DNA of 48,126 bases from a virus. The notes under the pieces were generated by a model. The model saw nothing but the letters and a program-made list of their open reading frames with translations, made no database searches and was not told the origin of the DNA. The position numbers and the translations under genes were made by a program. The number at the start of each line of letters is the position of its first letter. The first letter of the stretch is position 1. Of the stretch, positions 28,835-46,712 are shown one piece after another. The stretch lies in the IMG/VR virus record IMGVR_UViG_3300027851_000043, positions 1-48,126 of that record; one strand, written 5' to 3'.

Positions 28835-28872
28835 ATTGGACTCCTGAAAAAGTTGACGAAGGTCGTCGAGGT

Positions 28873-28889
28873 GCCGGGCTATACCCGGC
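28873..28889 (-). promoter_or_regulatory. 5'-UTR stem-loop
   Basis: GCCGGG/CCCGGC stem with 5-base loop, about 40 bases upstream of the 353-residue gene start, before an AGGAGTCC ribosome site. It belongs to the same leader arrangement as the AATGC hairpins but has a different loop. Confidence 0.5.
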
Positions 28890-28903
28890 GGGTGGGGTGC
28901 ACG

Positions 28904-29389
28904 TCAAGCGCAGCGCATCAGGTACTCGGTGCCGTCGAAGTCGACGGATGTGTAGTCCTGCTTGAGCTCCTCGGCAGCGGCGTCCCAGTCGATGTGGCTG
29001 AGGGGCCAGTTGGCGTTGCGGTCGATGGCGCCGATGTCGTAGGCCAGCTCCTCGGCGAACTCGGCAAACTTGTCGGCGCGGATCAACTGCTCGCCATGCC
29101 GCCAATCCGCGGAGTAGGGTGAAGCCTCCTCAGCAAGGTCTCGCAGGGCGAGGTACTCGTCCACCTCGTCCCAGTACAGGTGGGCTGGGCCTGTGTCGTT
29201 GACCCAGTGGAGCCAGTCCTCGAACTTGGCCGGCACCTCGTCGGACTTGTCGTCCGGCACTTTCTCGCTGTCGACCCACTCCTCGTACTCCGTGTCGTGG
29301 GCGTCGGTGAGCTCGCTCTCGAGCTCCTCCATGCGCTCGATCACGTCGCGGCTGTCGATGTACGCATCACCTCTCAAATCACCTGCCAT
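28904..29389 (-). CDS. ArdA-like acidic protein, possible antirestriction
   Basis: A 161-residue, strongly acidic protein. The C-terminal EFAEELAYDIGAIDRNANWP then IDWDAAAEELKQDYTSVDFD matches the closing part of ArdA-type antirestriction proteins (FAEEL ... IDW..AAREL..DY). The N-terminal half (DSRDVIERMEELESELTDAH) is a coiled helix. ArdA mimics DNA and blocks type I restriction enzymes. Only the C-terminal resemblance supports the call, so a generic DNA-mimic reading is as safe. Confidence 0.5.
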   Translation of the reverse strand: MAGDLRGDAYIDSRDVIERMEELESELTDAHDTEYEEWVDSEKVPDDKSDEVPAKFEDWLHWVNDTGPAHLYWDEVDEYLALRDLAEEASPYSADWRHGEQLIRADKFAEFAEELAYDIGAIDRNANWPLSHIDWDAAAEELKQDYTSVDFDGTEYLMRCA

Positions 29390-29407
29390 GTTGGCCTCCT
29401 GGTTGTT

Positions 29408-29422
29408 GCCTCAATTCGAGGC
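29408..29422 (-). promoter_or_regulatory. 5'-UTR stem-loop overlapping a stop codon
   Basis: GCCTC-aattc-GAGGC on the + strand; the stem covers the last codons and stop of the 408-residue gene and precedes the leader region of the 161-residue gene on the other side. It may act as a 3' stabiliser. Confidence 0.35.
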
Positions 29423-30637
29423 GGGTTGGGTTTGTGCCTTCTTCAGGCGCTCGACCACAGGGTCGAAGAACTCGTCCTTCAAGGACTCCTCGGCGTGCTC
29501 TTGCCCGATGAAGCCCCAGCAGCTGTCGTAGTCGCCGCTGGCAATCCACTCGGGCTCCTCGCCCTCATCGGGCTCCTTGGCCAGGGTGAAGACCTGGGTG
29601 ACACAGCCGTAGACATCACCGCTGCACCACTTGCTGTACTCCTCGAGCACGCCAGCGGCGTAGTGCACCGCGGCGGTGTGCACATCCATCGGGCGATCGG
29701 CGTAGTGCTGATCGACGTAGTCGCGGGCCTGTTTGTAGGCCTCGGGTTGACCGTCGACCACGACGCCGGCGTTGTCGGGGAAGAAGGCCACGTTGCGACC
29801 ATCGGCTTCGACGATCCAGCCGTTGGGGCCGAGGTAGGTCTCTTTGCCGCGCTTGACGACCACGCCCTTGTGGCAGCCCTTGCCGATGTTCTCGATGGCG
29901 CCCTTGTCGGCCACCCACACACCGTCAGGCAGGTCATTGATGTCGCCGTCCCAGGTCGTGGTCGAGTAGCGGGTCTCGTAGTTGCCGCCGGAGGACGCAA
30001 CAGGCACCACGTAGGGCCCGGCGATCTGCTGCCAGTGTTCGGAGTACAAAGCCTCGGCGTGCTTGGCCATCTGGTCGCTGAAGTAGCCCCGGTAGTCAGC
30101 GAGGTCCTCGCGAATCTGCTTCTCGTACCGGCCCCGCAGGTACGTCAGGAGCTGGCGGCTGGGTTCACCGCTCTCCAGCTTCTCTAGGTGGTCCCCCTCG
30201 CTCAGGTTGAGGCCACCCCACTTCTCAAGGTGCAGCAGGAGGTCCGTGAGCTGTTCGCCATCAAGTTCGTCCCACAACCGGTCTGCGGCGTGCTCGCACA
30301 GGTCTTTGGTGACCCCCTTGATGGTGACCGACTGATCAAGGTCAATCTCGCCGTACCCATCCAACCCCAGCGCGCTGTAGAACTCGCTGTCGTTATCGGT
30401 GATGGTTCTGTCGCACGCCGAGTAGGGCGTCTTCGTGTACAGGTCGCCCTGGCAGTCGTAGTCCTTGAGGGGGTTGATCCCAGGGCAGTCGTCGTGCACG
30501 AGGTAGGCCACGACCAGTTTGTCGCCGACACGCTCGATGAGCACATCGTCCTCGTTGTACGGCTCAAACTCCAGCTCGAGGTCACCGTGCTCGGTAACCA
30601 GGGTCAGTTGGGTGCGGCGGCGCAGTTTGTTGGTCAT
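29411..30637 (-). CDS. Hypothetical protein, 408 aa
   Basis: Soluble, acidic protein starting MTNKLRRRTQLTLVTEHGDL. The N-terminal domain is beta-rich, the centre is helical (LADYRGYFSDQMAKHAEALY), a glycine-rich stretch follows (VVPVASSGGNYETRYS), and the end holds DYDSCWGFIGQEHAEESLKD, seen in other phage unknowns. One exact 11-mer is in FFPDNAG codons. The nine upstream in-frame codons are inside the leader hairpin and not used. Confidence 0.66.
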   Translation of the reverse strand: MTNKLRRRTQLTLVTEHGDLELEFEPYNEDDVLIERVGDKLVVAYLVHDDCPGINPLKDYDCQGDLYTKTPYSACDRTITDNDSEFYSALGLDGYGEIDLDQSVTIKGVTKDLCEHAADRLWDELDGEQLTDLLLHLEKWGGLNLSEGDHLEKLESGEPSRQLLTYLRGRYEKQIREDLADYRGYFSDQMAKHAEALYSEHWQQIAGPYVVPVASSGGNYETRYSTTTWDGDINDLPDGVWVADKGAIENIGKGCHKGVVVKRGKETYLGPNGWIVEADGRNVAFFPDNAGVVVDGQPEAYKQARDYVDQHYADRPMDVHTAAVHYAAGVLEEYSKWCSGDVYGCVTQVFTLAKEPDEGEEPEWIASGDYDSCWGFIGQEHAEESLKDEFFDPVVERLKKAQTQPASN

Positions 30638-30657
30638 GTTGGACTCCTTGAAGTTGT

Positions 30658-30672
30658 GCCCCAATGCGGGGC
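30658..30672 (-). promoter_or_regulatory. 5'-UTR stem-loop (AATGC loop family)
   Basis: GCCCC-AATGC-GGGGC on the + strand (GCATT loop in the RNA), about 20 bases upstream of the AAGGAGTCCAAC ribosome site of the 408-residue gene. Confidence 0.75.
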
Positions 30673-30682
30673 GGGGTTGAGG

Positions 30683-32083
30683 TCAGCCGACGGCCCGGTC
30701 AAGTCGGTAGCCGCGGGGTGTTCCTTCGCTGTTCTCGAACAACGAACGGCGCACACACTCGACAGTGCGCTTGACCAACGCCACCACGGGGCCAGGCACC
30801 ACGCTCTGGCCGAGCAGGATGTGCTTGTCGGTGTTGGACAGGCCCGCCACCAGCTTCGGGTCCACACCCTTGATGCGGGCATGCTCGTCGCCACTGAAGA
30901 GTCGCAGGAGGTTGGCGTTGTCGGAGTGTTGGAGCATGGGGTCCGTAGAACCGCCCTTCCAGTAACCCCGACGCAGGGTCGGAACGCGGGTCGAGTTCAG
31001 GTCGACGATCTGCATCTGGAAACCCTTGCCGGCTTCCTTGTCGCGCACCGCCTTGTCCTTGAGGTAGTTGAACTCGCCCCACGTGTGGTTGTTGTGCTGG
31101 TCGAGGATCTGGGCCACGGTGCGCACCGGGCGCACAGCCGGCGCCAGGTTGGTCAGGTCCATCTCGGTGCCGGCCGGCACCCCGACCATGAACCAGCGGA
31201 CGCGCTTCTCCATGGCGCCGAAGTCGCTGGCGTCCAGCTGCACCTCGTGGGTGTCGTAGCCCATGTCGCGGGTCTGCGACCGGATGATGCTTGCCGAGGC
31301 GCTGGAGGCGTACTCGGGCACGTTCTCGAGCAGGAACATGCCGGGCTGCAGCCGGTGCATGAAGGTCAGGAACGAGTGGGCAAGGTGGCCGACCTCAGGG
31401 TGGTCCTCCATGATCTCGATCCCGTTCTTGGACTTGCCTGCGCGGCTCGCGCCGGAGCAGGGGATGCCGGCCACGAGGAAGTCAGCCTTGGGCAGACTGG
31501 CCATGAGGTCGTCGTCCTGGATGGCCTCCTGCATCGGCGCGGAGATGATGACCGTGTCCTTGGTCAACACCGGGTTCGCGCCACGGGCATGCTCCACGAG
31601 GTCGTCGTCGATCTCGTTGACCAGCACCGTGTGCGCCTGCACCCCAGCCTGCAGGATGCCGGCGTGGGCGCTGTGGTCGAGGATGCCGCCGCCGAACGCC
31701 AGGCCCGCCACGGCCACCGTGGTGGCCAGCGCCTGCTTCAGGCGCCCCACCCGTGCGGTGGCCAGCTCAGCCGATGCCAGCTTGGAGATCTCGATGCGGC
31801 CGGGCTTCATCACCACCTTGACGACCTTGCAGTGGGCAAGGTGTCCCAGCGTGCCGTCGCTGTTGATGTCGATGACAGGGGTGAAGCCCTCGCCCTTGGC
31901 CTTGCGCGAGATCGTGAACTGACCCTGGGTCACCGGCTTGGCCGTGAGGATCAGCTTGCGGCCCTCGAACGTGGCGTCGTAGCCATGGCCGGGCAGGAAC
32001 CCGTTGTCGGCCAGCGACTGGCTCTGGAAGTAGAGGCGTGCGTTGCCCCGGTGGCTACCCACCATCTTGATCTGGTACTTCAT
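30683..32083 (-). CDS. DNA (cytosine-5) methyltransferase
   Basis: 466 residues. SAM-binding motif I is LAFGGGILDHS at about 128-138, the catalytic PC motif is GIPCSGAS at 206-213 (PPCQ in most family members), ENV at 253-255 is motif VI and GQSVVPGPV near 435 is motif IX/X. The first 120 residues form a beta-rich domain with RLYFQSQSLADNGFLPGHGY seen in other phage C5 enzymes. It could protect phage DNA from host restriction. The non-standard motif IV could mark low or altered activity. Confidence 0.85.
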   Translation of the reverse strand: MKYQIKMVGSHRGNARLYFQSQSLADNGFLPGHGYDATFEGRKLILTAKPVTQGQFTISRKAKGEGFTPVIDINSDGTLGHLAHCKVVKVVMKPGRIEISKLASAELATARVGRLKQALATTVAVAGLAFGGGILDHSAHAGILQAGVQAHTVLVNEIDDDLVEHARGANPVLTKDTVIISAPMQEAIQDDDLMASLPKADFLVAGIPCSGASRAGKSKNGIEIMEDHPEVGHLAHSFLTFMHRLQPGMFLLENVPEYASSASASIIRSQTRDMGYDTHEVQLDASDFGAMEKRVRWFMVGVPAGTEMDLTNLAPAVRPVRTVAQILDQHNNHTWGEFNYLKDKAVRDKEAGKGFQMQIVDLNSTRVPTLRRGYWKGGSTDPMLQHSDNANLLRLFSGDEHARIKGVDPKLVAGLSNTDKHILLGQSVVPGPVVALVKRTVECVRRSLFENSEGTPRGYRLDRAVG

Positions 32084-32100
32084 GTTGAACTCCGAAAGGT

Positions 32101-32113
32101 GCCCAATGCGGGC
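32101..32113 (-). promoter_or_regulatory. 5'-UTR stem-loop (AATGC loop family)
   Basis: GCCC-AATGC-GGGC, immediately upstream of the CGGAGTTCAAC ribosome site of the methyltransferase gene. Confidence 0.75.
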
Positions 32114-32120
32114 GGGTTGG

Positions 32121-32471
32121 TCAGGATGCCGGCCGGTACTTGCAGAGGAGGTTCCAGAACTCCTCCGTGAGGCGCTGCTTGTTCTCGCTATCAGCCACGG
32201 CCAAGGCCCGGCCGATGTGTGTGTCGAAGGCGCCAGCGTAGTCCTCGACCCTGTTGACGATGCGCCTCACCTCGTCGTAAGAGAGGCTGCACATGGGCAG
32301 GGTGTGGTGGTCCACGCGCGGGGTGCCGATCATCTGGACGTTGTGCACGTTGATGGCCAGCAGGTCTCCCATGTCATCTGGGCAGTTCTCGTGGGTGATC
32401 GCCGGCGGCCCGTGCGGGGAAGCGTCGTCGTACTCGACGAAAAAGCTGATACGTGCGGTTTTGATGGTCAT
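32121..32471 (-). CDS. Hypothetical protein, 116 aa
   Basis: Starts MTIKTARISFFVEYDDASPH; beta strands followed by two helices (YDEVRRIVNRVEDYAGAFDT). An in-frame TTG five codons upstream is less well placed. No family recognised. It follows the DUF5983-like gene by four bases. Confidence 0.62.
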   Translation of the reverse strand: MTIKTARISFFVEYDDASPHGPPAITHENCPDDMGDLLAINVHNVQMIGTPRVDHHTLPMCSLSYDEVRRIVNRVEDYAGAFDTHIGRALAVADSENKQRLTEEFWNLLCKYRPAS

Positions 32472-32475
32472 GGCG

Positions 32476-32769
32476 TCACCATTCAAAAGTGGGGAGGGCT
32501 TCGATCGGGTTGGCGTCGCAGTCCAGCCTCACGAAGTCGCAACCGTAGTTGTGGGCAAACCGCAGCACGGCGGCCAGCTCGGGGTGCTCATCCTCGAGCA
32601 GGCCAGTGTCCTGCCCGGCGATGAACACCCACCCATAACCCATCCAAGGGGTGTACACCACCTCGGGGTACAGCTTGGCGTTCTGGTGGTCTGGCAGACC
32701 CCCCAGTGCATCGGCCGTGTGCTTCGGGATGTGGGCGGTGCTGATGGTCAGCATCTTGTCGATTTGCAT
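32476..32769 (-). CDS. DUF5983-like protein, 97 aa
   Basis: LTISTAHIPKHTADAL at the N-terminus, YGWVFIAG in the middle, HPELAAVLRFAHNYGCDFVR and a closing LPTFEW follow the DUF5983 plan found on phages and plasmids. Function is unknown; small soluble protein. Confidence 0.72.
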   Translation of the reverse strand: MQIDKMLTISTAHIPKHTADALGGLPDHQNAKLYPEVVYTPWMGYGWVFIAGQDTGLLEDEHPELAAVLRFAHNYGCDFVRLDCDANPIEALPTFEW

Positions 32770-32770
32770 G

Positions 32771-32980
32771 TCAGGACTCCTTCGCAGGTTCAAAAGTCAC
32801 GCGGCGGTTGCGGAAGTCCTCGAGGAACCTCTCGTGCATCTCCAGGGTCTCCTCCTTGCCCCGCATGGTTTCGACGCTGCCCCCGTACCTGATCGAGGCG
32901 TGGGCCTCTTTCACGTCTTGCACCAACTGCTGGTGCTCCTCGAGCAGATCAATCAGATCGCCTACGGTTTCGATGTGCAT
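32771..32980 (-). CDS. Hypothetical coiled-coil protein, 69 aa
   Basis: Begins MHIETVGDLIDLLEEHQQLV and continues as one charged helix with a short Gly break. The start is the ATG at 32980 just after the previous gene; upstream in-frame codons overlap that gene. Confidence 0.62.
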   Translation of the reverse strand: MHIETVGDLIDLLEEHQQLVQDVKEAHASIRYGGSVETMRGKEETLEMHERFLEDFRNRRVTFEPAKES

Positions 32981-32981
32981 G

Positions 32982-33536
32982 TCAGCTCCCCACCCGCCAG
33001 TCGGGCAACACGTCATAGGTCAGCACGCCGTCGATGTCGGGGCAGTCAAGGTTGCCCGCTCCGGGCACGCACGGACTGCACAACTGGTAGGTGCCCGCCA
33101 CCGGAGACTTGAAGATCCAGAAGTTCAGGGCGCCGCCCAGCCACGACGTGCGGTAGAAGGTGTCCTGGTACCTGCCCTCGATGATGGGCTCCTCGATGCA
33201 GAGGTCCTCAGTCTCGCGCTCCACCGCACACCTGACGAAGTCATCGCGGTCGTTGTAGCCCAGGGCTTTGTAGCCAGACTCGATCCGGTCTTCGAGGATC
33301 CGCTCGTACTCGGGATCGCTCGTGATGTGGTAGTCGACCTCGATGAGGCCGTCGTGCACCTGCTCCTCGATCACGTCTGCGCGGCGTTCTGTGTCGGACA
33401 CGAGCTGATCGACGGCCAGGCGGAGACTGAGGTCCGTGCCGTGAACGTACATCAGTTCGTGGACCAAATCGGGGTCCAACGAGTCCGCCCGGATGTAGCC
33501 GTAGCGGATACCTGTTTCGGGGTCAATGTTGGTCAT
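32982..33536 (-). CDS. Hypothetical protein, 184 aa
   Basis: Starts MTNIDPETGIRYGYIRADSL, a start seen in other phage early proteins, then acidic helices and a Cys-containing end (YQLCSPCVPGAGNLDC). The two Cys pairs could bind metal. It is joined by ATGA to the next gene. Confidence 0.65.
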   Translation of the reverse strand: MTNIDPETGIRYGYIRADSLDPDLVHELMYVHGTDLSLRLAVDQLVSDTERRADVIEEQVHDGLIEVDYHITSDPEYERILEDRIESGYKALGYNDRDDFVRCAVERETEDLCIEEPIIEGRYQDTFYRTSWLGGALNFWIFKSPVAGTYQLCSPCVPGAGNLDCPDIDGVLTYDVLPDWRVGS

Positions 33537-33964
33537 TGGTTAACTCCAAAGAGTGGTTCGGCAGGGGCGGTTGCAAACTGCACTGGGTCCAGAAAGTGGG
33601 CTGCCTTCCAGTACAGGCGGTTGGCATCCCGCCGAAAGGCGCAGCGGCTGATCTCACCCAGACGCTCGTCCATGGCAAGGCTGATGAGCGTGGTTCGGCG
33701 CTGCCTCAGGAACGGCAGGGCCTTCTCAAAGCGCTCGCGCATGACGTTGTCGGGGATGCGGTCTAGGGTGTCCTCGTTGAAGCGGATCTCCCCGGGCACC
33801 CCCAACTCCCGGGACACGCAGGAACCCTGGTTTGTCTCGAAGTACACGAGGCGCTTGGGCTTTCCCGCGCTCTCGTTGATCTCGATGATCCCGATGTGCT
33901 CGACGTTCATGTGGCGGTAGTTCGGGTCCAACCACCCGCCGTGCAGGTAGAAGTGGTAGCTCAT
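33533..33964 (-). CDS. Hypothetical protein, 143 aa
   Basis: Starts MSYHFYLHGGWLDPNYRHMN; mixed alpha/beta, a helix RERFEKALPFLRQRRTTLIS and a polar tail. One exact 11-mer copy lies in RIPDNV codons. No known motif. Confidence 0.62.
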   Translation of the reverse strand: MSYHFYLHGGWLDPNYRHMNVEHIGIIEINESAGKPKRLVYFETNQGSCVSRELGVPGEIRFNEDTLDRIPDNVMRERFEKALPFLRQRRTTLISLAMDERLGEISRCAFRRDANRLYWKAAHFLDPVQFATAPAEPLFGVNQ

Positions 33965-34413
33965 CGGTCACCCCCGCGGTGTCGGCGCTCGTCGCCGCCG
34001 GTGAGTGGCGCGGCGCATGCGAGCATTGCGGTACGGCAGGCGTTCCACCCGTCACAGTACCTCTGTTCTGACAGCCTCTGCTCGGAGCTTTCGTACCAGC
34101 CTTCAGGCTCAATACTGTCCGGCACCTGCCGCGGCGGAAGGGAACTCAACACCTTCTCGACATGCTTGTCGATCCGCGCGGCGATGCGGTCTAGCAGCCG
34201 CTCGTTGTTGGTGCTGTGCCCGCAGTCGCTCATGACCATCGCAGCCAGGTCGTAACTGGTGCAGGACGGGTCGCAGTGGTCGGGCGCTGCGGGCTTCCCA
34301 AACATTGCCGCGGTGCCGTAGTCCTTGAGCACTCGCGTCAGCCACTCCTCATGGCCCCGAGGGCACTCGTCGAAGTACCACATCTGCAGTGGGGGCAGTT
34401 CCGATGCAGGCAT
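33961..34413 (-). CDS. Hypothetical protein, 150 aa
   Basis: Starts MPASELPPLQMWYFDECPRG, then HCDPSCTSYDLAAMVMSD and a C-terminal helix with RYCDGWNACRTAMLACAAPL, a pattern common in phage unknowns. Several Cys/His could bind zinc. The start is the internal ATG at 34413; the codons before it overlap the next gene's end. Confidence 0.6.
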   Translation of the reverse strand: MPASELPPLQMWYFDECPRGHEEWLTRVLKDYGTAAMFGKPAAPDHCDPSCTSYDLAAMVMSDCGHSTNNERLLDRIAARIDKHVEKVLSSLPPRQVPDSIEPEGWYESSEQRLSEQRYCDGWNACRTAMLACAAPLTGGDERRHRGGDR

Positions 34414-34414
34414 G

Positions 34415-34627
34415 TCAGTCTCCAAACTCAACGGGGGTGGGCAGCGGCAGCTCGGTCAGCTGAGCCTTGAGGGTGGCAAGTCGGGCTTGCAGGTAGGCGT
34501 CCTGCGCTTCGGCGGCCTTGACCAGTGAGCGGGCATGCTCGGTCTTGGCGGACTGCTCGATGATGGCGCGCTGCACCTCGTAGATCTGGTCGTGGATCAC
34601 AGCTTGGATGGTTGGCTTGCGGAACAC
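34415..34627 (-). CDS. Coiled-coil small protein, 70 aa
   Basis: One long heptad helix (IHDQIYEVQRAIIEQSAKTE, AQDAYLQARLATLKAQLTE) with a short Pro-containing tail. Likely an oligomer; function unknown. It overlaps the next gene by 31 nt. Confidence 0.62.
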   Translation of the reverse strand: MFRKPTIQAVIHDQIYEVQRAIIEQSAKTEHARSLVKAAEAQDAYLQARLATLKAQLTELPLPTPVEFGD

Positions 34628-34803
34628 GTGCTCTCCTTGATTTCGTACTGGGCTTTGGCGTGGGACCAGACCCAGACAACCCGCCGGCGGCCCATCTGGC
34701 GCACGTCCTCGGCGATGTCGCTGGAGTCGGTCTTGAGGAAGCAGAGGGTCCCCCTGCTGTTGCGGATCTGGTAGGTCCGGTCGTATTGCTGGCGCCAGGT
34801 CAT
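34597..34803 (-). CDS. Hypothetical protein, 68 aa
   Basis: Starts MTWRQQYDRTYQIRNSRGTL. Basic middle (RQMGRRRVVWVWSHAKAQYE) and a Ser-rich end. Single small domain, unknown role; it overlaps both neighbours. Confidence 0.6.
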   Translation of the reverse strand: MTWRQQYDRTYQIRNSRGTLCFLKTDSSDIAEDVRQMGRRRVVWVWSHAKAQYEIKESTCSASQPSKL

Positions 34804-35039
34804 GACGTCACCATCTTCATGGTCGAGCCTGGCCCTGCGGCCACCACGAAGGCGTCGACAGTCTTGTCGTTGCGGTCGATCCGCCCAGGGCGCACAACAC
34901 CCTCGACCTCGTAGTAGTCCATGCCCCCGTAGCTGTAGGGCACGACGTTGAGGGTGGTGATCGGGACGCCGCCGTTGTCGTGATCGGCCATGTGGTCGTA
35001 GACGTTGACGCGGTCAGCCTTGCGGTACTTGCGGTCCAT
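34800..35039 (-). CDS. Hypothetical protein, 79 aa
   Basis: Starts MDRKYRKADRVNVYDHMADH; contains a beta-rich YYEVEGVVRPGRIDRNDKTV segment. The start ATG shares its bases with the previous stop. Function unknown. Confidence 0.6.
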   Translation of the reverse strand: MDRKYRKADRVNVYDHMADHDNGGVPITTLNVVPYSYGGMDYYEVEGVVRPGRIDRNDKTVDAFVVAAGPGSTMKMVTS

Positions 35040-36428: not shown

Positions 36429-36443
36429 GCCCCAATGCGGGGC
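36429..36443 (-). promoter_or_regulatory. 5'-UTR stem-loop (AATGC loop family)
   Basis: GCCCC-AATGC-GGGGC between the 269-residue gene (upstream) and the DUF7447-like gene. Confidence 0.75.
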
Positions 36444-38319: not shown

Positions 38320-38967
38320 TCAATACTCCTTTTCAAAGATGTCGAATCGTCCTTCCGACGCTCGGACCATGTCACCCCATCGGTACCACCGGGCCTTCAC
38401 GTTGGCGTACTTAAGGCCGTACTTTTCGCAGGCATCCGGAAGGCTCGAAACCCCGCCCGGCGTCGACACCCAAATGGTCCTGGACGTGTTGCGAGCCTGG
38501 CGGCTCCGGGTAGCCCACACGCAGTTACCGGGCCCGTAGGGCCTCGTGTTGTCCACCCTTTCCAGGGTGTGCTCAACTGACGGGGCCGGCCCCATCTCCC
38601 GCAGGAACTCCGAGAACTCTCTCCACACGTCAGGGGGCGCAAACGTGTGGTACCTCTGGTAGCCCTTGTGTTTGGGGTTGGTGCAGCGCTGCCACATCCC
38701 GGCCCAAACCTGAAACTCCCTTGTTCCGCTGGCGCCGTGAGTCTGAAACCGGGCCTTGGATTGCTCCCTCTGCAGGCAGCCGCAGGACGACGTAGCCCCG
38801 CTTTTCAGGTTGCTTCCGGCGACCACCTTTTCTGCCCCGCAGTCGCAGACGCATTGCCACTTGGTGGCCTTGCCTTTTCCTGCGTCGGCTAGGCTCCTCA
38901 CGGTCAGTCTCCCGTACCGGTGACCGGTTTTGTCATCGAAGTTCCGTGCCCGTTTGTGCTCAGTCAT
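38320..38967 (-). CDS. HNH-type homing-endonuclease-like protein with zinc finger
   Basis: A 215-residue relative of the 10807-11415 gene: N-terminal finger CVCDCG ... SSCGCL, then AGMWQRCTNPKHKGYQRY, HTLERVDNTRPYGPGNCVW and RQARNTSR, and a C-terminal DACEKYGLKYANVKARW DNA-binding tail. The DxxDN/GPGN spacing is the same as in the other copy. Like that gene it is inserted in the overlap chain without breaking neighbours, consistent with a free-standing homing endonuclease. AAAGGAGCGC precedes its ATG. Confidence 0.75.
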   Translation of the reverse strand: MTEHKRARNFDDKTGHRYGRLTVRSLADAGKGKATKWQCVCDCGAEKVVAGSNLKSGATSSCGCLQREQSKARFQTHGASGTREFQVWAGMWQRCTNPKHKGYQRYHTFAPPDVWREFSEFLREMGPAPSVEHTLERVDNTRPYGPGNCVWATRSRQARNTSRTIWVSTPGGVSSLPDACEKYGLKYANVKARWYRWGDMVRASEGRFDIFEKEY

Positions 38968-39589: not shown

Positions 39590-39602
39590 GCCCAATGCGG
39601 GC
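39590..39602 (-). promoter_or_regulatory. 5'-UTR stem-loop (AATGC loop family)
   Basis: GCCC-AATGC-GGGC between the cupin-like gene (upstream) and the basic 111-residue gene. Confidence 0.75.
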
Positions 39603-40189: not shown

Positions 40190-40210
40190 GTTGGACTCCA
40201 GTTGAAATAT

Positions 40211-40223
40211 CCCCAATGCGGGG
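40211..40223 (-). promoter_or_regulatory. 5'-UTR stem-loop (AATGC loop family)
   Basis: CCCC-AATGC-GGGG upstream of the cupin-like gene; the stem lacks the outer G/C of its relatives. Confidence 0.75.
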
Positions 40224-40270
40224 GAAGCAAAAGTGTAACGTCCGTGAGCAGGCGCTACCCCGAAAGTAGG

Positions 40271-40286: not shown

Positions 40287-40288
40287 TG

Positions 40289-40522: not shown

Positions 40523-40560
40523 GGTGCTGGAGGCCGCCCGTGAGCGGCCTCCCTCAACAT
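40519..40560 (-). other. Possible leader peptide (13 aa) with internal hairpin
   Basis: ATG at 40560 overlaps the preceding stop (TGATG), reads MLREAAHGRPPAP and stops overlapping the next start. The hairpin GGAGGCCGC/GCGGCCTCC lies within it. This layout suits translational coupling of the 77-residue gene to its upstream neighbour, but is unproven. Confidence 0.35.
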
Positions 40561-40913
40561 CAGGCGGCGGCGGGGGTCTGCTGGTCTTCAGCGGCCTTCA
40601 CCGGCGCCTTGCGGGCGGCCTTGGGCTTGGCCGGCAAGTGGCCGGGGTTCTCGGCCAGGAAGCGCTCGTCCAGGTGCTTGACCAGTGCGGCGATGCCGTC
40701 CTTGTGTGCGGCGATCTCGGCCTGCAACTGCAGAGGCTTGTTCTGGATCTTGGAGAGGGTGTCCACCAAGGTTTCCGCATCGCTGATCAGGCCGTAGATC
40801 TGGGCGCTGGTCAGGGTCTTGATGTCGGTGCCGTTGACGTAGGTCGTGACGGAATTTTCCTTTGCGTCGGTGGAGACGGTGGTGACGGTGCGGATGGTGA
40901 TGATCTTGGTCAT
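40560..40913 (-). CDS. Hypothetical protein, 117 aa, basic Ala/Lys tail
   Basis: I place the start at ATG 40913 after the CGGAGTTCAACACC leader: MTKIITIRTVTTVSTDAKEN, then a helical part and a C-terminal AKPKAARKAPVKAAEDQQ tail like a nucleoid-type basic tail. Uniquely, the upstream reading frame runs through the leader hairpin into this gene with no stop, so a 324-residue fusion with the 41534 gene is also open. Function unknown. Confidence 0.55.
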   Translation of the reverse strand: MTKIITIRTVTTVSTDAKENSVTTYVNGTDIKTLTSAQIYGLISDAETLVDTLSKIQNKPLQLQAEIAAHKDGIAALVKHLDERFLAENPGHLPAKPKAARKAPVKAAEDQQTPAAA

Positions 40914-41534
40914 GGTGTTGAACTCCGAAGTGGTGCCAATGTCGGCGGGTTTGGGTTGGTTGCTCTTGGGGAGCTGTTGAAAGTCCGGCATGCTGGAAGA
41001 CATGCGGCCTGTGGTGGTTGCGGTTTTGAACCCGTCCGACAGGGCGGCCTCGACCTTGTCGAGGAAGAACTGAGCGCGGGCCGCGTGACCTGCGATCTCG
41101 CCCTGGAGTTGGTACGAGTCGGCAGACACGGCCAGCGCCCGCATCTCAAGGTCCGAGAGGTCGGCGGTGACCGCTTTCCACGCCGGCTCCGGATCGTGGA
41201 CCTTGACCTTGACGTTGTCGGGGTCGTAGTCGTCTTCGCGGCTGTAGAAGTCCTTGTACCGGTCGTCGATGTGGCGCCTGTTGGCGTCGTCCAGAACCTG
41301 GTTGATTTCCCAGGTCTGGGCCAGGTAGTAGCGCAGCAGCTCACGCTCGTCCCCGGACTCGTGGTAGGGGATATGCCCCGCCAATCTGAGGAGCTTGGTG
41401 TGGGTCAGGATCAGGCTGTAGGCCACGCCCGCGGACTTGAGGTTGATGAAGCTGCTGTAAAACTTCCCCTCGTTCTCCAGACACATCGCCAGCTCCGTGA
41501 GCTCGGTGTTGGTGAGGTTGCGTTTGGGCTTCAT
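40914..41534 (-). CDS. Hypothetical protein, about 207 aa, open into the next gene
   Basis: Starts MKPKRNLTNTELTELAMCLE, helical, with DYDPDNVKVKVHDP in the middle (exact 11-mer) and a polar end (MPDFQQLPKSNQPKP). Relatives of the leader element end their upstream gene before the hairpin, so a stop seems to have been lost here and the frame continues through the next start to 40560. Either a fused 324-residue protein or two proteins by internal initiation. Confidence 0.55.
40935..40946 (-). promoter_or_regulatory. Divergent 5'-UTR stem-loop, translated in frame
   Basis: GCC-AATGTC-GGC with the same flanks as the other leader hairpins, but the stem is shorter and it lies inside an open reading frame. 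Confidence 0.55.
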
Positions 41535-41569
41535 CCGCTGCCTCCCGGGTGGTTGCGTTCATCTCTCAC
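41531..41569 (-). other. Possible leader peptide (12 aa, GTG start)
   Basis: AAAGGAG precedes GTG 41569; the frame reads VRDERNHPGGSG and its stop overlaps the ATG of the following gene (ATGA). It may help load ribosomes on that gene; small and unproven. Confidence 0.3.
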
Positions 41570-41600
41570 GTTGGTTCTCCTTTCGGTTGGTGGTTGGAAA

Positions 41601-41909
41601 TCAGACCCAGAACGTCTGGCCGCAGAAGCACTGCCATTCGTCGAGCTGGGCTTTGTTGTCTGTGTCGGTCGGCTCAGTGGACTGGGCATCCCAAACGATG
41701 CCAAGTTTGAACAGGCCCGTGCCTCCGCAGTGGGGGCAGTACATGACGGGCTTCGGGGGCGCCTGGCTCTGCAGGTGCGCCTTGACCATCAGCTCATAGA
41801 GCTTGGCGGCCTCCTGTGTTCGGTACGGGCGCCACTCATCGCAGTACCCCCGGCCCACCGCCGCCAGCATCTCGGGAGAGGCCTGCATCGGAAGTCTTGC
41901 GGTGATCAC
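41601..41909 (-). CDS. Zinc-ribbon protein, 102 aa
   Basis: CPHCGGTGLFKLGIVW and, further on, QCFCGQTFW form a four-Cys zinc ribbon. The N-terminal part is helical (AAKLYELMVKAHLQSQAPP). Unknown function, probably nucleic-acid binding. Confidence 0.6.
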   Translation of the reverse strand: MITARLPMQASPEMLAAVGRGYCDEWRPYRTQEAAKLYELMVKAHLQSQAPPKPVMYCPHCGGTGLFKLGIVWDAQSTEPTDTDNKAQLDEWQCFCGQTFWV

Positions 41910-42124
41910 GTCGGGCCTCCGAGTTCGTCGGGGAAGTTGTACTCCGTGTCGAACATTGCGACGTTGCCCAGCACCTTGGTGCCGCAGTCGTTGTAGTCAC
42001 CCTCGCTGATCTTCTCGATGATCTGCTCACGCTGCCCCTCCGTGCTCAGGGCCTCGTCGACCTCGACCTCGACGTAGTAGCGGGTCCACTCGGGAACGTC
42101 ATAGCTCATGCTGATGGTCTTCAT
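41906..42124 (-). CDS. Hypothetical protein, 72 aa
   Basis: Reads from ATG 42124: KTISMSYDVPEWTRYYVEVE, then an acidic helix (GQREQIIEKISEGDYNDCGT) and an aromatic end. The start overlap with the previous gene (gap 1 nt) supports it; the longer frame upstream is a shadow. Confidence 0.6.
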   Translation of the reverse strand: MKTISMSYDVPEWTRYYVEVEVDEALSTEGQREQIIEKISEGDYNDCGTKVLGNVAMFDTEYNFPDELGGPT

Positions 42125-42125
42125 T

Positions 42126-42653
42126 TCACCCTCCTGTGAGACGGCGCAGGACTTCGTCGTAGCCCATGCCGCTGATGAGTTCGTCAATCTCTTCGCGCTT
42201 CGCTTCCTCGGCCTCCTCGGCAAGTCGTTGCAGGCGCACCTGCTCCTCGTGGGCAGCCTTGGCCTTGGCCCACAGACTCTCCCATCTCTGGTCGCTGCTC
42301 GGCTCCAGCATGTACCAGTTGCCCTGGCCAAGGTCTAGGCGGCCGGAGGTGCCGAACGACTTGAGGCCTTGGCGTTCGTTCAGGGAGATGACGAGGGCGC
42401 TGAGGTGCAGCCTCGCGTTGGGCCTGAAGCAGCGCTCGGTCAGCAACCGGCGGTTCTCCTCCACGCCCTCGAGGTACAGCATCACGCGCTTCTGGCCCTC
42501 GGGGGTCTGGCGGAAGTAGTGTCCCTCGTAGTCCGACATGACTACGTGCCTGCGGACACGCAGCTCATGCTCGTTGATGAAGGCGTCGAGGTCGTCCACC
42601 TCGTGGATCTGGACGTGGCCGAAGTGGGGCAGGCCCCGGATGATCACTCGCAT
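42126..42653 (-). CDS. Hypothetical protein, 175 aa
   Basis: Starts MRVIIRGLPHFGHVQIHEVD. Basic central part (RFDR-type), then a Glu/Ala/Arg-rich coiled-coil (EEQVRLQRLAEEAEEAKREE). No catalytic motif. It overlaps the next gene by 10 nt. Confidence 0.6.
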   Translation of the reverse strand: MRVIIRGLPHFGHVQIHEVDDLDAFINEHELRVRRHVVMSDYEGHYFRQTPEGQKRVMLYLEGVEENRRLLTERCFRPNARLHLSALVISLNERQGLKSFGTSGRLDLGQGNWYMLEPSSDQRWESLWAKAKAAHEEQVRLQRLAEEAEEAKREEIDELISGMGYDEVLRRLTGG

Positions 42654-42916
42654 GGCGCGTCTCCTTTGGCGATCTCCACAAGACTCCGCCAATAGTGACT
42701 GGCGTGCTCGTTGTCGGGGTGCGAAGGTCGCCCTGAATCTCCGAGCGAGTCGATGTAGACAAGCAGTTCGCGCTCGGCACGTTCTGCCCGGGATTGGGCC
42801 TGGCCTTCGGCCACCGTGCTGATCAGCCCCTTCGAGGCTCTGTACCGGATGACCCGGGAAGTCGCCATCACCGAGGCGAGGCGATAGATCTCCATCTGTT
42901 GGTTGGTGGTCAGCAT
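42644..42916 (-). CDS. Hypothetical helical protein, 90 aa
   Basis: Starts MLTTNQQMEIYRLASVMATS; basic helix RYRASKG, then AERAERELLVYIDSLGDSG and an exact 11-mer in SHPDNE codons. Unknown function. Confidence 0.58.
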   Translation of the reverse strand: MLTTNQQMEIYRLASVMATSRVIRYRASKGLISTVAEGQAQSRAERAERELLVYIDSLGDSGRPSHPDNEHASHYWRSLVEIAKGDAPCE

Positions 42917-42917
42917 G

Positions 42918-43007
42918 TCAGCTCCTCATGACGATCCAGAAAAGCGCCACCATCGCCAGGGGCCCGACGATGTACTGGCCGATGGCCTCGATAGTTGCAA
43001 TGTCCAT
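42918..43007 (-). CDS. Single-pass membrane peptide, 29 aa
   Basis: Reads MDIATIEAIGQYIVGPLAMV followed by ALFWIVMRS: one clear membrane segment in 29 codons. GGAGCG precedes the ATG. It fits tightly between two genes and resembles small inner-membrane peptides of phages. Function unknown. Confidence 0.5.
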   Translation of the reverse strand: MDIATIEAIGQYIVGPLAMVALFWIVMRS

Positions 43008-43008
43008 G

Positions 43009-43254
43009 TCAGCGCTCCGGGTTAATGTCTTCGTGCTGGCCCTCGATCAGCAGCAGGCACAGGTAGTCCTCGGGTTCGTGGTGCTCGTGGAACTCGTCCA
43101 CGTCCTCGTGGTCGCACTCGATCACCTCCTCGCGCGCCAGGTGCAGCGCCTCGACCGGGTCCTTGGCCTCGACGCTGGTCATGAAGGTGTCCGACCCGTA
43201 GGAGTCGGCCATGTAGTCCGGCCGCAGCAGCAGCACGGTGTAGGTTTTGCTCAT
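43009..43254 (-). CDS. Phage early protein, 81 aa, function unknown
   Basis: Starts MSKTYTVLLLRPDYMADSYG; acidic middle (ECDHEDVDEFHEHHEPEDY) and a closing LCLLLIEGQHEDINPE. This alternation (YTVLLLRPDY ... IEGxHEDINP) recurs in phage and plasmid unknowns. Soluble. Confidence 0.65.
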   Translation of the reverse strand: MSKTYTVLLLRPDYMADSYGSDTFMTSVEAKDPVEALHLAREEVIECDHEDVDEFHEHHEPEDYLCLLLIEGQHEDINPER

Positions 43255-43265
43255 GTTGGTTCCTT

Positions 43266-43508
43266 TCAGCCCACCCGGGCTTCGATTCGCAGAGAGATCG
43301 GAGCCTCTTGGCTCCACGGCCAGCGCATGGCGCCGGAGATGGCAAGGTCCCGGCGCAGCGCCGCGAGCTGCGCCTCTCGCTCGATGAACTGGGTCAGGGC
43401 CCGGCCGATGACTTCTTGGGGGTGCGACATCGGACCCTCCCCGCTGTAGACGATGTCCATCAGGTTGGCGAAGTCGTTGTCGGGGCGAAGTTCGGCGGTG
43501 GTGGTCAC
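43266..43508 (-). CDS. Hypothetical protein, 80 aa
   Basis: Starts MTTTAELRPDNDFANLMDIV (exact 11-mer in RPDND codons), then helix EVIGRALTQFIEREAQLAAL and a basic-aromatic end. No family recognised. Confidence 0.58.
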   Translation of the reverse strand: MTTTAELRPDNDFANLMDIVYSGEGPMSHPQEVIGRALTQFIEREAQLAALRRDLAISGAMRWPWSQEAPISLRIEARVG

Positions 43509-43714
43509 GTTCTTTCTCCTTCATCAGCATCAATCAGCCGGACGCACCAGCCGCACCCGCTGCAGATGACGAACGATTCGTCGTCGAAATCGAGATCCCC
43601 GTAGGGTCCATCGGTCACCTCGTGGTCACCGTCTTCGGTGAAGGTCACGTCCGCCAGCTGGCGAATCACAACCTGGAAGCTGCGGTGGCCGCAGCATGGG
43701 CATTTGGTGCTCAT
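43505..43714 (-). CDS. Zinc-ribbon protein, 69 aa
   Basis: Reads MSTKCPCCGHRSFQVVIRQL at the start and ICSGCGWCVRLIDADE at the end: two CxxC-type pairs framing a beta domain with an acidic middle. Probably a small zinc-binding protein. Confidence 0.62.
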   Translation of the reverse strand: MSTKCPCCGHRSFQVVIRQLADVTFTEDGDHEVTDGPYGDLDFDDESFVICSGCGWCVRLIDADEGERT

Positions 43715-43848
43715 TTCAGGACCTCCACGAGGCCTGACAAAGCAGACAGCGCCAGACACGAGATGGCAAGCATGTCCCCCACCCTGTCGCTCAGTCGGGG
43801 CGACACGTAGATCGCCGTCATCAACAGGAAGAGTTGGGTGGTGCTCAC
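43711..43848 (-). CDS. Small membrane protein, 45 aa (GTG start)
   Basis: Starts at GTG 43848 after AAAGGAACGGAC; reads STTQLFLLMTAIYVSPRLSD then MLAISCLALSALSGLVEVL, two short hydrophobic segments. Overlaps both neighbours by 4 nt. Confidence 0.5.
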   Translation of the reverse strand: MSTTQLFLLMTAIYVSPRLSDRVGDMLAISCLALSALSGLVEVLK

Positions 43849-44114
43849 GTCCGTTCCTTTCTGACCCCTCCACGGGGTCCAATGCTCAACACGTAGTCGG
43901 GGTACTCGCCCAACCGGTCCCGCGGATCAGGCCGCGCGGCGACGCTGACCTTGTCGTTGTCGGGGATGTGGATGCTGGCGTCGTGGCAGGTGTCGTCAAA
44001 GCGCAGCACGTCCTCGGTGTAGAGGCGGTACGAGTTCACCGCATCCGCAATCGAGTCGTGGGCCTCGGCGTCTTCCAGCGTGTCGCCACCGATGCAGAGG
44101 AAGCACTTGGTCAC
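43845..44114 (-). CDS. Hypothetical protein, 89 aa
   Basis: Starts MTKCFLCIGGDTLEDAEAHD; acidic, with HIPDNDKVSVAARPDP (exact 11-mer) and a basic end (GPRGGVRKERT). Function unknown. Confidence 0.58.
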   Translation of the reverse strand: MTKCFLCIGGDTLEDAEAHDSIADAVNSYRLYTEDVLRFDDTCHDASIHIPDNDKVSVAARPDPRDRLGEYPDYVLSIGPRGGVRKERT

Positions 44115-44467
44115 GATGCCTCCTCGGCCTGGGCCTCAGCGATCCACTTGTCCAGCAGCTCGTGGCGCACCTGCTGGCGCCAACCAAGGTCCAGCTTCTC
44201 AACCTTGGACCAGTGGTCGACCACCCCGCGCTCCAGCGCCAGAAGCCCGGGGTAGAGGGCGAGATGCGTGCACCCGGTCACCTTCTCCAAGCGTTCCAGT
44301 TCGGTGTTGATGGCGCTGTCGAGGCGTTCGTAGTGGCGCAGCGCCTCCCTGCTCGCGTCAAAGGTCATGGCCCCGCTGTTGGCGTTGCAGATGCTGCCCA
44401 TGAACGTGTTCGGGGCCCGCTGGGGAAGCCGGGCCTTGACCAGCTTCAGGTATTCGCTGTATTTCAC
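44111..44467 (-). CDS. Tandem paralogue A, 118 aa
   Basis: Starts MKYSEYLKLVKARLPQRAPN and ends RHELLDKWIAEAQAEEAS. The first 12 residues and the last 20 match the next gene almost exactly while the centre differs. The centre is helical with an NTELERLEKVTG region. Function unknown. Confidence 0.62.
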   Translation of the reverse strand: MKYSEYLKLVKARLPQRAPNTFMGSICNANSGAMTFDASREALRHYERLDSAINTELERLEKVTGCTHLALYPGLLALERGVVDHWSKVEKLDLGWRQQVRHELLDKWIAEAQAEEAS

Positions 44468-44847
44468 GATTGCTCCTCCAGTTCAGCTTCAGCGATCCAC
44501 TTGTCCAGCAGTTCGTGGCGCACCACCTGGTTCCACTCCCGGTGGTAGTGCAGCTCCAACCCGGGGGTCTGGTGCATCAGGACAGCCGCCAACTGCGCGG
44601 GGTACATGGCGTGCACCGGCGCTGTCACCGGCAGCTTCTCGCGCAGCAAGCGCAGCTCCAGGTCGATCGCACAGTTGACCCGGTGGTAGTGCTTGGCCCC
44701 GTCAACGCCGGTGACGAAATACCGCACATCCCCGTTGGCGTAGCAGATCGGGTGGGACTTGCGGTTCGGAGCAAACACACAATCGCCTAGCTCATCCGGC
44801 GCAACGGTGTGGGCCTTGACCAGCTTCAGGTATTCGCTGTATTTCAC
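44464..44847 (-). CDS. Tandem paralogue B, 127 aa
   Basis: Starts MKYSEYLKLVKAHTVAPDEL and ends RHELLDKWIAEAELEEQS, so ends are shared with the neighbouring gene; the centre carries YANGDVRYFVTGVDGAKHYH. A tandem duplication with conserved ends and diverged core suggests two related binding specificities. Function unknown. Confidence 0.62.
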   Translation of the reverse strand: MKYSEYLKLVKAHTVAPDELGDCVFAPNRKSHPICYANGDVRYFVTGVDGAKHYHRVNCAIDLELRLLREKLPVTAPVHAMYPAQLAAVLMHQTPGLELHYHREWNQVVRHELLDKWIAEAELEEQS

Positions 44848-44850
44848 GAT

Positions 44851-45054
44851 TCACTCCTTGGTGATCTCGAAACCGCTGAGGTCGGACTCCAGCACCTCGC
44901 ACCAACAGACCGCGGGGTCTTCGCCGACGAGGGAGAACTGGAACCAGGTGCGGCGGTCACCGGGGTAGTGCCGGGTGCCCATGTAGATCAGGCGCTCGGA
45001 TTGCCCGATCCAGTTGCAGCGCAGGCCGGGGGTGAGTTCTTGGCGTGTGAGCAT
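44851..45054 (-). CDS. Hypothetical protein, 67 aa
   Basis: Reads from ATG 45054: LTRQELTPGLRCNWIGQSER, then a beta hairpin (RTWFQFSLVGEDPAVCWC). Small, soluble, unknown. Confidence 0.55.
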   Translation of the reverse strand: MLTRQELTPGLRCNWIGQSERLIYMGTRHYPGDRRTWFQFSLVGEDPAVCWCEVLESDLSGFEITKE

Positions 45055-45062
45055 GGTTGACC

Positions 45063-45350
45063 TCAGCAAATGGGTTTGTCGATGAGCTTGCCGTCGGCGC
45101 CCACCCAAGCCTGCTTGGGCAGGGCAAGGTTGCACAGCTGGCGCACGTGGGCGTCACCTTTGGCCGTGGTGTGGTAGATGCCCGAGAGGGGGTTGGCCTC
45201 CTCCGGGTGAATCAGGCCCGAGTCGCGCAGCTCTTCGAGGGCTTCCCTGACGGCGGGCGCGTTGAAGCCCGGGTGCTTGCGAGGCGAGACGTGGCAGTGG
45301 AGCAGCACCTCGATGTGGTTCGGGGTGGGGAGGTGGGTGATCTTGGCCAT
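45063..45350 (-). CDS. Winged-helix-like protein, 95 aa
   Basis: Helix PAVREALEELRDSGLIHPEE then YHTTAKGDAHVRQL fits a small winged helix-turn-helix wing region; HCHVSPRKHPGF is basic. Could be an early regulator. It lies next to the putative origin region. Confidence 0.55.
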   Translation of the reverse strand: MAKITHLPTPNHIEVLLHCHVSPRKHPGFNAPAVREALEELRDSGLIHPEEANPLSGIYHTTAKGDAHVRQLCNLALPKQAWVGADGKLIDKPIC

Positions 45351-45353
45351 GGT

Positions 45354-45950
45354 TCACTCCCCCACAAAGTCGATGGGCAGGCCGTGGCCGGCAGGGGTGC
45401 GCGGGGCATCGTGCACCGGCTCAACCTTGATCACCGGCAGGCACTGCGCCAGACCCAGGGCCATGAGCCCGGTGCGGAAGTCGTCGCGGTACTCGAACCA
45501 GTCCTCGATGCGGGGCAGGCGGACCTTGTCGTGGAGACCGGCGGGGTCAAGGCCGAGCTTGGCGAGGGTTCGCACAGTCTTGGCCACCGGACCCATTTCG
45601 ATTCGAGCCGGGGTTTGCTGGTCGTGCGGCAGAAAGGATTCGATCTCGACTTGCAGGCGCCCGGAGTGCCCCCGGAGCAGGGTGACGCGGTGGCGGGCGT
45701 AGGGCGGGTGCTTGGCACCCAGGTCGAGGACCGCCACGGTGGTGTGGCCGCGGGGCGTGTCGGCCCCCGTGTAGGGGGTGAGGGCGTGGGTTTCGACCCG
45801 CTCGATGACGGCGGGTGAGACCGGGTCCTTGGGGAGGGCGGCGCGGACGGCGGTGTTCAGCCCGGTGAGGAAGGCCTCGACGTTGTCGGGGGAGCGGGGG
45901 TCAAGGGCGCAGGGGAGCGTGGCCACGGGCGTGGCAAGGGTGCGGTGCAT
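45354..45950 (-). CDS. Hypothetical protein, 198 aa
   Basis: Starts MHRTLATPVATLPCALDPRS with an exact 11-mer in SPDNV codons. Mixed alpha/beta; a basic stretch (YARHRVTLLRGHSGRLQVEI) in the middle. It is the first gene behind the putative origin and has a leader hairpin (45969-45983). Confidence 0.6.
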   Translation of the reverse strand: MHRTLATPVATLPCALDPRSPDNVEAFLTGLNTAVRAALPKDPVSPAVIERVETHALTPYTGADTPRGHTTVAVLDLGAKHPPYARHRVTLLRGHSGRLQVEIESFLPHDQQTPARIEMGPVAKTVRTLAKLGLDPAGLHDKVRLPRIEDWFEYRDDFRTGLMALGLAQCLPVIKVEPVHDAPRTPAGHGLPIDFVGE

Positions 45951-45968
45951 GTTGAACTCCTAAAGGGC

Positions 45969-45983
45969 GGCCCAATGCGGGCC
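45969..45983 (-). promoter_or_regulatory. 5'-UTR stem-loop (AATGC loop family)
   Basis: GGCCC-AATGC-GGGCC, upstream of the 198-residue gene, directly next to a DnaA box. Confidence 0.75.
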
Positions 45984-45992
45984 TGTGGATAA
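45984..45992 (-). promoter_or_regulatory. DnaA box
   Basis: TGTGGATAA on the + strand, so the minus strand reads TTATCCACA, the E. coli consensus. Confidence 0.8.
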
Positions 45993-46019
45993 CTTGTTTC
46001 GGCGAGACAAGGTCCCCGG

Positions 46020-46251
46020 TTGGGTACCTTCGGACAAAACAGGTTTCGGCGTTGATCTTACAGGTAAAAAATTTTCAGACCCTAGCGGTACCCAACTTTT
46101 GCCCAAGGAAGGTCTGAAAAATTCAAAGTTCATTTCATATTGTGAAACGAGAAAAAGAGGTCGATTTTTCCAGCTTTGGGTACCGTAAGGGTCGAGAAAA
46201 AAAGTCCCCTGAGATCAAGGCGAAATGGAGATCTGTCCGAAGGTACCCAAG
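46020..46251. repeat. Imperfect inverted repeat bounded by GGTACC
   Basis: Left arm 46020-46096 and right arm 46177-46251 match as reverse complements over about 75 bp with mismatches. Each arm starts TTGGGTACC and ends with GGTACCCAA, giving four GGTACC sites. The 80-bp centre contains the palindromic TTTCATATTGTGAAA (46134-46148) and is AT-rich. It could be a cruciform-forming origin element or an operator array. Confidence 0.8.
46134..46148. promoter_or_regulatory. Dyad TTTCATATTGTGAAA
   Basis: TTTC/GAAA arms at the centre of the inverted repeat. A copy with two changes, TTTCATATCGCGAAA, lies at 46754-46768; together they suggest a binding site for a phage initiator or repressor. Confidence 0.5.
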
Positions 46252-46394
46252 CACTTGAACTGCATGGTTCAGACGTGAACTGAGCAGTAATGTCGCTTGC
46301 AAGCAACAGATTCAGGCTTGGGTGGTTAGTGCCCACTCACGTACGGGGGTTTTGACGTTGTCGGGGCACGCTGACGTTGTCGAGGTTGCGTTTG

Positions 46395-46425
46395 TGTGGA
46401 CAACCTGTGCACAACCTGTGGATAA
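46395..46425 (-). repeat. Three 11-bp iterons (DnaA-box type)
   Basis: TGTGGACAACC, TGTGCACAACC and TGTGGATAAGT at 11-base spacing, one helical turn apart. The last contains a perfect DnaA box (46417-46425). Confidence 0.75.
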
Positions 46426-46426
46426 G

Positions 46427-46681
46427 TCAAAGGAGGCGGCCGAACAGGGCCATTTCGGCACGCTGCATGCGGCGCAGCTTGGGCGGGACGGTGGGCTGCG
46501 GGACGGGGTCAACCCAGAAGTCCTTGACCAGGGTGTTGCCCGCGCCGTTGGTCTCGTACACCCGACCCTTGACCTTGGCAGCGGTGGCCAGGCAACGGGT
46601 CAGGTTGTGGCTCAGGCGCCCGTGCCGGGTGAAGACCGGGTGTGGGTCGTTGACGTTGTCTGGCTTTAGGATGTAGAACAC
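46427..46681 (-). CDS. Hypothetical protein, 84 aa (GTG start)
   Basis: Reads from GTG 46681 after GGAGGCCAAA: FYILKPDNVNDPHPVFTRHG, then basic (RLSHNLTRCLATAAKVKGR) and a Pro/Val end. A longer frame reaches 46759 but runs through the leader hairpin. A near-match of the 11-mer lies in KPDNV codons. Basic; a DNA-binding role near the origin is possible. Confidence 0.6.
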   Translation of the reverse strand: MFYILKPDNVNDPHPVFTRHGRLSHNLTRCLATAAKVKGRVYETNGAGNTLVKDFWVDPVPQPTVPPKLRRMQRAEMALFGRLL

Positions 46682-46699
46682 TTTGGCCTCCAGTTTCTG

Positions 46700-46712
46700 G
46701 CCCAATGCGGGC
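46700..46712 (-). promoter_or_regulatory. 5'-UTR stem-loop (AATGC loop family)
   Basis: GCCC-AATGC-GGGC upstream of the 84-residue gene. Confidence 0.75.

Follow-up and report, generated by a model that had tools for sequence, protein, structure and literature searches.

A family of short hairpins stands just upstream of ribosome-binding sites in the accessory genes of a phage represented by IMG/VR virus record IMGVR_UViG_3300027851_000043, the whole of which (48,126 bases, 64% GC) is the window analysed here. Comparison with related phages shows an RNA-type structure under selection, with a characteristic position in the leader, a loop particular to each phage, a distribution restricted to a clade, and an association with spaced gene junctions, and suggests that the hairpin is a shared switch on protein production of accessory genes. 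The case is built by comparing sequences from uncultivated viruses, some of whose records are fragments. Within the window, minus-strand genes from 1 to 27.7 kb form a replication and nucleotide block (SbcC, thymidylate synthase, SbcD, DNA polymerase, primase, helicase, and ligase), and 27.7 to 47.5 kb holds a long run of minus-strand accessory genes, mostly unknown, with a C5-cytosine methylase among them.

An initial annotation of this DNA had described seven leader hairpins with a common loop, and all seven are present as exact copies of CCCAATGCGGG on the plus strand. For the minus-strand genes this reads in RNA as CCCGCATTGGG, where GCAUU forms the loop and the annotated AATGC is the plus-strand complement of that loop. 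The opposite strand of the window holds no exact copy, a reversed control pattern gives none either, and the composition-based chance expectation for the exact 11-mer in the window is about 0.06. All on the minus strand (E values from the covariance model described below), the seven are GCCC-GCATT-GGGC at 46700..46712, 8 nt before GGAG (gene start 46681, 84 aa; E 0.034); GGCCC-GCATT-GGGCC at 45969..45983 (gene start 45950, 198 aa; E 6e-7); CCCC-GCATT-GGGG at 40211..40223 (gene start 40189, 191 aa; E 0.64), thermodynamically the weakest, with a pair probability of about 0.28 in context; GCCC-GCATT-GGGC at 39590..39602 (gene start 39568, 111 aa; E 0.0014); GCCCC-GCATT-GGGGC at 36429..36443 (gene start 36410, 112 aa, DUF7447; E 3e-9); GCCC-GCATT-GGGC at 32101..32113 (C5-cytosine methylase gene start 32083; E 3e-5); and GCCCC-GCATT-GGGGC at 30658..30672 (gene start 30637, 408 aa; E 1e-8). 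These stems are as the annotation had described them, and so is the near-constant ribosome site: the hairpins stand 7-11 nt upstream of GGAGTYCAAC-type sites on the minus strand, and GGAG(T/G)(C/T)CAA plus a start codon follows all seven. Its claim that the stems change in pairs holds in the window for the outer pair or two but not for the inner CCC/GGG, which is invariant in all seven, so that covariation inside the window is thin.

The window also contains more divergent members. One that the annotation had listed, GCC-GACATT-GGC at 40935..40946 on the minus strand (gene start 40913, 117 aa), is real (E 1.2e-4), and one that it lacked, GCCTC-GAATT-GAGGC, lies at 29408..29422 on the same strand (gene start 29389, 161 aa; E 1.2e-7). 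The relative reported at 28873 does exist as a hairpin (GCCGGG-TATAG-CCCGGC, 28873..28889, minus strand), but it lies too far upstream; in that leader the family is represented by GACG-ACCTT-CGTC at 28855..28867 on the minus strand, adjoining the ribosome site of the gene that starts at 28834 (353 aa, phrog_11344), and this leader therefore has two hairpins. Its ribosome site, GGAGTCCAAT at 28835..28844 (minus strand), adjoins the start codon and exemplifies the near-constant form seen in the family. Tandem-hairpin leaders of this kind are common in the near-duplicate relatives G003 (L162, positions 1-16700) and G007 (L178), with the two hairpins about 6-8 nt apart and the upstream loops variable. 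As annotated, most sites follow the stop of a preceding frame and come before the ribosome site, but those at 45969 and 46700 are in long non-coding stretches. The reported absence from the replication block holds in both the window and its relatives, and the anatomy fits an association with accessory genes in all element-bearing records.

No near-identical phage was present in the phage collection that we searched. A polymerase search recovered one record, G001 (71 kb), co-linear with the window, and a primase alignment recovered eleven IMG/VR records, G001 included. Seven of the eleven bear the element, and these amount to six distinct phages at 55-70% identity—G001, G002, G003, G008, G009, and G010—plus G007, the near-duplicate of G003. 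The element occupies the same leader position in them with other stems and loops: ACCTT, GCTTT, or GCCTT in G001; GCTTT or GATTT in G002; GACT, GATT, or AACT in G003; GCTTT or ACCTT in G008; GATTT or GATTTT in G009; and GATT in G010. Neither such hairpins nor the GGAGTYCAAC site in this leader role were found in G004, G005, G006, or G011, or in a 23-kb Variovorax stretch. In the primase tree, G004, G005, G006, and the Variovorax sequence form a single well-supported clade, with the root and several inner forks unresolved. The Variovorax stretch belongs to a 194-kb bacterial assembly contig of Variovorax paradoxus ISL-3 (NZ_JAGGNU010000056.1), its primase is 59% identical, and it offers the only host lead, for the sister clade, which suggests hosts of the Comamonadaceae type.

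The strongest evidence for structure comes from tests that span these genomes. We counted a hairpin where at least four Watson-Crick pairs enclosed a loop of 4-6 nt, 3-14 nt before GGAG; this criterion was set after the family had been seen, and the tests anchored on the ribosome site pick their sites independently of structure. Summed over the seven distinct element-bearing genomes (the window and its six distinct relatives, the near-duplicate left out), there are 100 GGAGTYC start sites, and 69 of them have a hairpin where shuffling the leaders leaves about 8; of the 613 remaining GGAG starts, 100 have one, where shuffling leaves about 70. We then aligned 49 leaders from the accessory region of four phages, chosen mostly by ribosome site and a few with related sites. 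Paired cells make up 82.0% of this alignment versus 56.6% after shuffling, and the covariation score is 0.479, compared with 0.129±0.023 for shuffled leaders and at most 0.151 when pairing partners are slid. RNAalifold independently predicts the three middle pairs from the leader alignment, each with two-sided changes. Compensatory changes are seen from site to site, from phage to phage, and among orthologues, which strongly supports, for the family at large, the annotation's claim of a kept structure; the claim thereby withstands the annotation's own refuting condition, relatives that show no such changes.

A covariance-model search over the phage and its relatives, the check that the annotation had proposed, gave a consistent picture. 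Built from 28 members, with G003 and G010 outside the training set, the model returns 77 sites at E<=1, of which 59 reach E<=0.01 (28 of these being sequences on which it was trained). Every site lies on the early-gene strand, and the sites are distributed across all seven element-bearing genomes, the two untrained ones included; strand and position fit leaders that would be transcribed with the genes. The model finds no sites in G004-G006 or G011, and 613 kb of control DNA yields hits no better than chance (best hits E 0.15); among distant cultured primase relatives, Pseudomonas phage PMBT3 and the first 45 kb of Vibrio phage SHOU24 gave only a chance-level hit.

Ten orthologous gene groups bear the element in at least two phages, and these show how stem and loop evolve at a given site. 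The leader of the phrog_11344 gene carries the element in five phages, no two of which share its stem or its loop, and the methylase leader in three phages with three stems and three loops. Loops are identical in only 2 of 27 orthologue pairs, versus 104 of 312 same-phage pairs; stems are identical in 4 of the 27 orthologue pairs, and the orthologous proteins that keep the element have diverged mostly to 37-63% identity. At 13 loci with phrog_11344 homologues outside the phage group, the element occurs in none, and it therefore belongs to the phage group and not to the gene; a further fragment, L205, has the element and resembles G003. On these comparisons, loop type goes with the individual phage and the element with the phage group.

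Across 68 elements, the consensus begins with AACCC on the 5' side, followed by a GC-rich stem of 4-6 bp closed by C-G (C in 63/68). The loop is 4-6 nt long, with G or A first in 67/68 and U last in 66/68. The base right after the stem is A in 54/68 and is followed by a pyrimidine/U-rich run, and stem-to-GGAG spacing is 7-8 nt in 46/68. About half of the elements lie 2-40 nt downstream of an upstream frame's stop. Gaps of at least 25 nt occur at 54 of 62 hairpin junctions versus 72 of 247 other junctions, counts that rest on a simple, crude gene caller, and this layout shows the elements standing at the first gene of overlapping-gene blocks, with about 7-13 sites per phage before different genes.

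The interpretation that we consider most likely, at about even odds, is that the element is an operator for a loop-reading RNA-binding factor acting on translation initiation; such a factor would account for the need for a paired stem, the constancy of the loop within each phage, and the fixed placement relative to the ribosome site. We infer the trans-acting factor, translation as the step affected, and the direction of the effect, whether repression or activation. In such a mechanism, the leader hairpin would act in cis on the block whose first gene it precedes, each block following a gap in a presumably polycistronic accessory transcript, and an RNA-binding factor, either phage-encoded or host-specific, would recognise the phage's own loop on it. 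The hairpin ends 7-8 nt before GGAGUYCAAC-AUG, at the upstream edge of the 30S footprint; binding would change initiation at the first gene, coupled overlapping genes would carry that change through the rest of the block, and scattered accessory blocks would be controlled together. A processing site, which the initial annotation had offered beside a switch, is weaker than a binding site as a reading: the stem spans no more than 4-6 bp, and what each phage keeps is the loop, not the stem. A further extension is more tentative, and we lean against it: a translational regulon covering the whole phage under a private loop code, in which the accessory-gene leaders of a phage would all bear one loop sequence, read by a fast-evolving RNA-binding factor, with no cross-regulation of co-resident relatives.

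Among the closest known systems is the gp43 (DNA polymerase) operator of T4 and RB69, likewise a hairpin upstream of a ribosome site with conserved loop bases and a loop that varies among phages, recognised by a phage protein (PMC3014915). The family resembles gp43 operators in loop and position, with 7-8 nt spacing at most sites and a loop largely uniform per phage. The gp43 operator, however, is one autoregulatory site, whereas there are about 7-13 elements per phage here, before different genes, and no convincing member stands before the polymerase gene.

Other explanations account for part of these observations. A factor-free structural hairpin—shielding the mRNA through stability or an exonuclease block, or separating the translation of operon neighbours—would fit the good predicted folding (mean pair probability 0.89), the frequent position 2-15 nt past an upstream stop, and the marking of spaced junctions, but has no need for a loop that is kept within a phage yet changed between phages. 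Nor does forbidding the stem in folding change the predicted accessibility of the ribosome site (0.345 vs 0.352, p 0.24), a result on which we also rejected passive thermodynamic opening of that site; overall, we regard a purely structural role as rather improbable. It is unlikely, in our judgement, that the hairpin acts on RNA polymerase entering each block, by boxB-like antitermination or as a hairpin-stabilised pause site. The boxB of lambda nut sites is a hairpin of about 15 nt with a 5 bp stem, a 5 nt loop, and a phage-specific loop sequence, all of which the element shares, and the combination of hairpin, 7-8 nt spacer, and pyrimidine-G step resembles pause sites. Against this, we found no boxA-like or other shared upstream motif (CGCTCTT-like sequences in 4/68 vs 5.7 shuffled), the loops are pyrimidine-rich, unlike purine-rich GNRA, and there are many copies per operon, tightly coupled to the ribosome sites of many genes. 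The hairpins are followed by no U tract and are generally not called terminators; an intrinsic terminator was rejected on the same ground, the only gene-strand terminator-like call among the elements falling at 28855-28867. A search for a RegB homologue, which would go with cleavage at GGAG, gave no match, and its control search likewise matched nowhere. A role in stability or pausing is possible.

Explanations at the level of DNA are very unlikely. Promoters of the N4 virion RNA polymerase (vRNAP) are also short hairpins before early genes, with a conserved loop and freely paired, variable stem positions (PMC4496689), but they are extruded DNA read by a giant polymerase; none is encoded in the sequence examined here, where the largest frame in element-bearing records is about 2,092 codons against about 3,500 residues for N4 vRNAP, in records that may be incomplete. 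The start-associated sequences (SAS) and extended SAS (ESAS) of cluster K mycobacteriophages are also among the nearest known systems, with many copies just upstream of starts, around the ribosome site of non-structural genes (PMC3203893), an inverted repeat adjoining that site, a group-specific consensus, and nearly all copies in one direction. Each ESAS consists of imperfect 17-bp repeats around a spacer that varies; the arms do not covary as RNA and were judged not to form RNA hairpins, for which reason the authors favoured DNA binding (PMC3203893, PMC12699233). Here, by contrast, covarying arms of 4-6 bp enclose a kept loop of different sequence in unrelated phages, the 13-bp start box GGGATAGGAGCCC is absent, the site being GGAGTYCAAC, and both the compensated changes in the stem and its narrowly set distance from the ribosome site indicate RNA. 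Chance, or functionless copying of a mobile repeat, would explain numerous copies with a homogeneous loop but is hardly credible, as the copies differ in stem with pairing kept, pairing exceeds both shuffled and slid controls, and the element is retained at orthologous genes despite the divergence of their proteins.

Several points do weigh against the loop-reading operator that we favour. No binding factor was found. A possible model for it is Com of phage Mu, a small zinc-finger protein that acts on the mom leader RNA, an accessory-gene target like those considered here, to activate translation (PMC6483171), but Com has a single target in Mu and no Com-type protein was found in the seven records searched. 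A tyrosine integrase, a 167-aa protein, and a family of small Cys-rich proteins are shared by every element-bearing genome and were not found in the element-less relatives, a co-occurrence that may reflect a single clade-level evolutionary event. The Cys-rich family, of which a phage has at most three copies, looks like an HNH-associated module, since it matches one part of a family of HNH endonucleases. Predicted structures of two candidate families (A8, 84 aa, pLDDT 83.5; A9, Cys-rich, pLDDT 74.5) gave no informative match in the PDB. The association with spaced junctions is also partly trivial, because a hairpin needs room. Copying of the element could explain part of its uniform loop within a phage, and the sites of one phage may have a common origin.

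In the window, the Cys-rich proteins (pattern CxCGT...SRSCGC) are encoded at 10301-10528, 11215-11496, and 38320-38967, all on the minus strand. The first of these loci, 22799-23302, and 46427-46681 encode small proteins that the clade conserves. The end of the tyrosine integrase gene lies at 68-436 on the plus strand, opposite to the minus-strand genes and cut by the record end; conserved in every element-bearing relative, the integrase suggests that these phages are temperate. The record is probably a fragment, because no virion genes were seen in its 48,126 bases and relatives of 71-86 kb hold additional genes. The window also holds 14 copies, versus 0.3 expected, of another dispersed repeat, GACAACGTC, which frequently takes the form CCCCGACAACGTC or the complement of that; many of the copies lie in the non-coding end (46.3-47.4 kb, 46300-47400) and others are scattered. 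G001, G002, and G008 have 15-20 copies and G004-G006 have 7-12, and the repeat is possibly an operator or replication repeat.

Searches for the hairpin beyond this phage group returned little. Rfam 15 gave 0 matches at the gathering score and, in a permissive search, unrelated weak hits only; no description of the element was found in the literature searched, with most subscription journals outside its coverage. An IMG/VR scan for CCCGCATTGGG...GGAG gave mostly chance matches. A set of unrelated IMG/VR contigs (L018, L022, L045, L053, and similar) has TAGAACCCGCATTGGGCTTCTA directly before AAGGAG at a gene for a virion-like protein of about 270 aa; we set these aside as family members, for they share the loop and inner stem but show apparently one locus and no other such leaders.

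Translational operators and start-associated repeats are already known, and what appears novel, on the comparisons made here, is a set of repeated, phage-specific putative leader operators. Most of the translational operators known from phages are lone autoregulatory sites, and elements repeated at gene starts had been left as DNA motifs with no assigned role. Clear RNA covariation together with the change of loop from phage to phage at orthologous sites makes this family a natural experiment on RNA-protein co-evolution. The loop, stem, and spacing provide concrete targets for asking how phages co-ordinate their accessory genes, and the element itself offers a handle for finding the missing factor.

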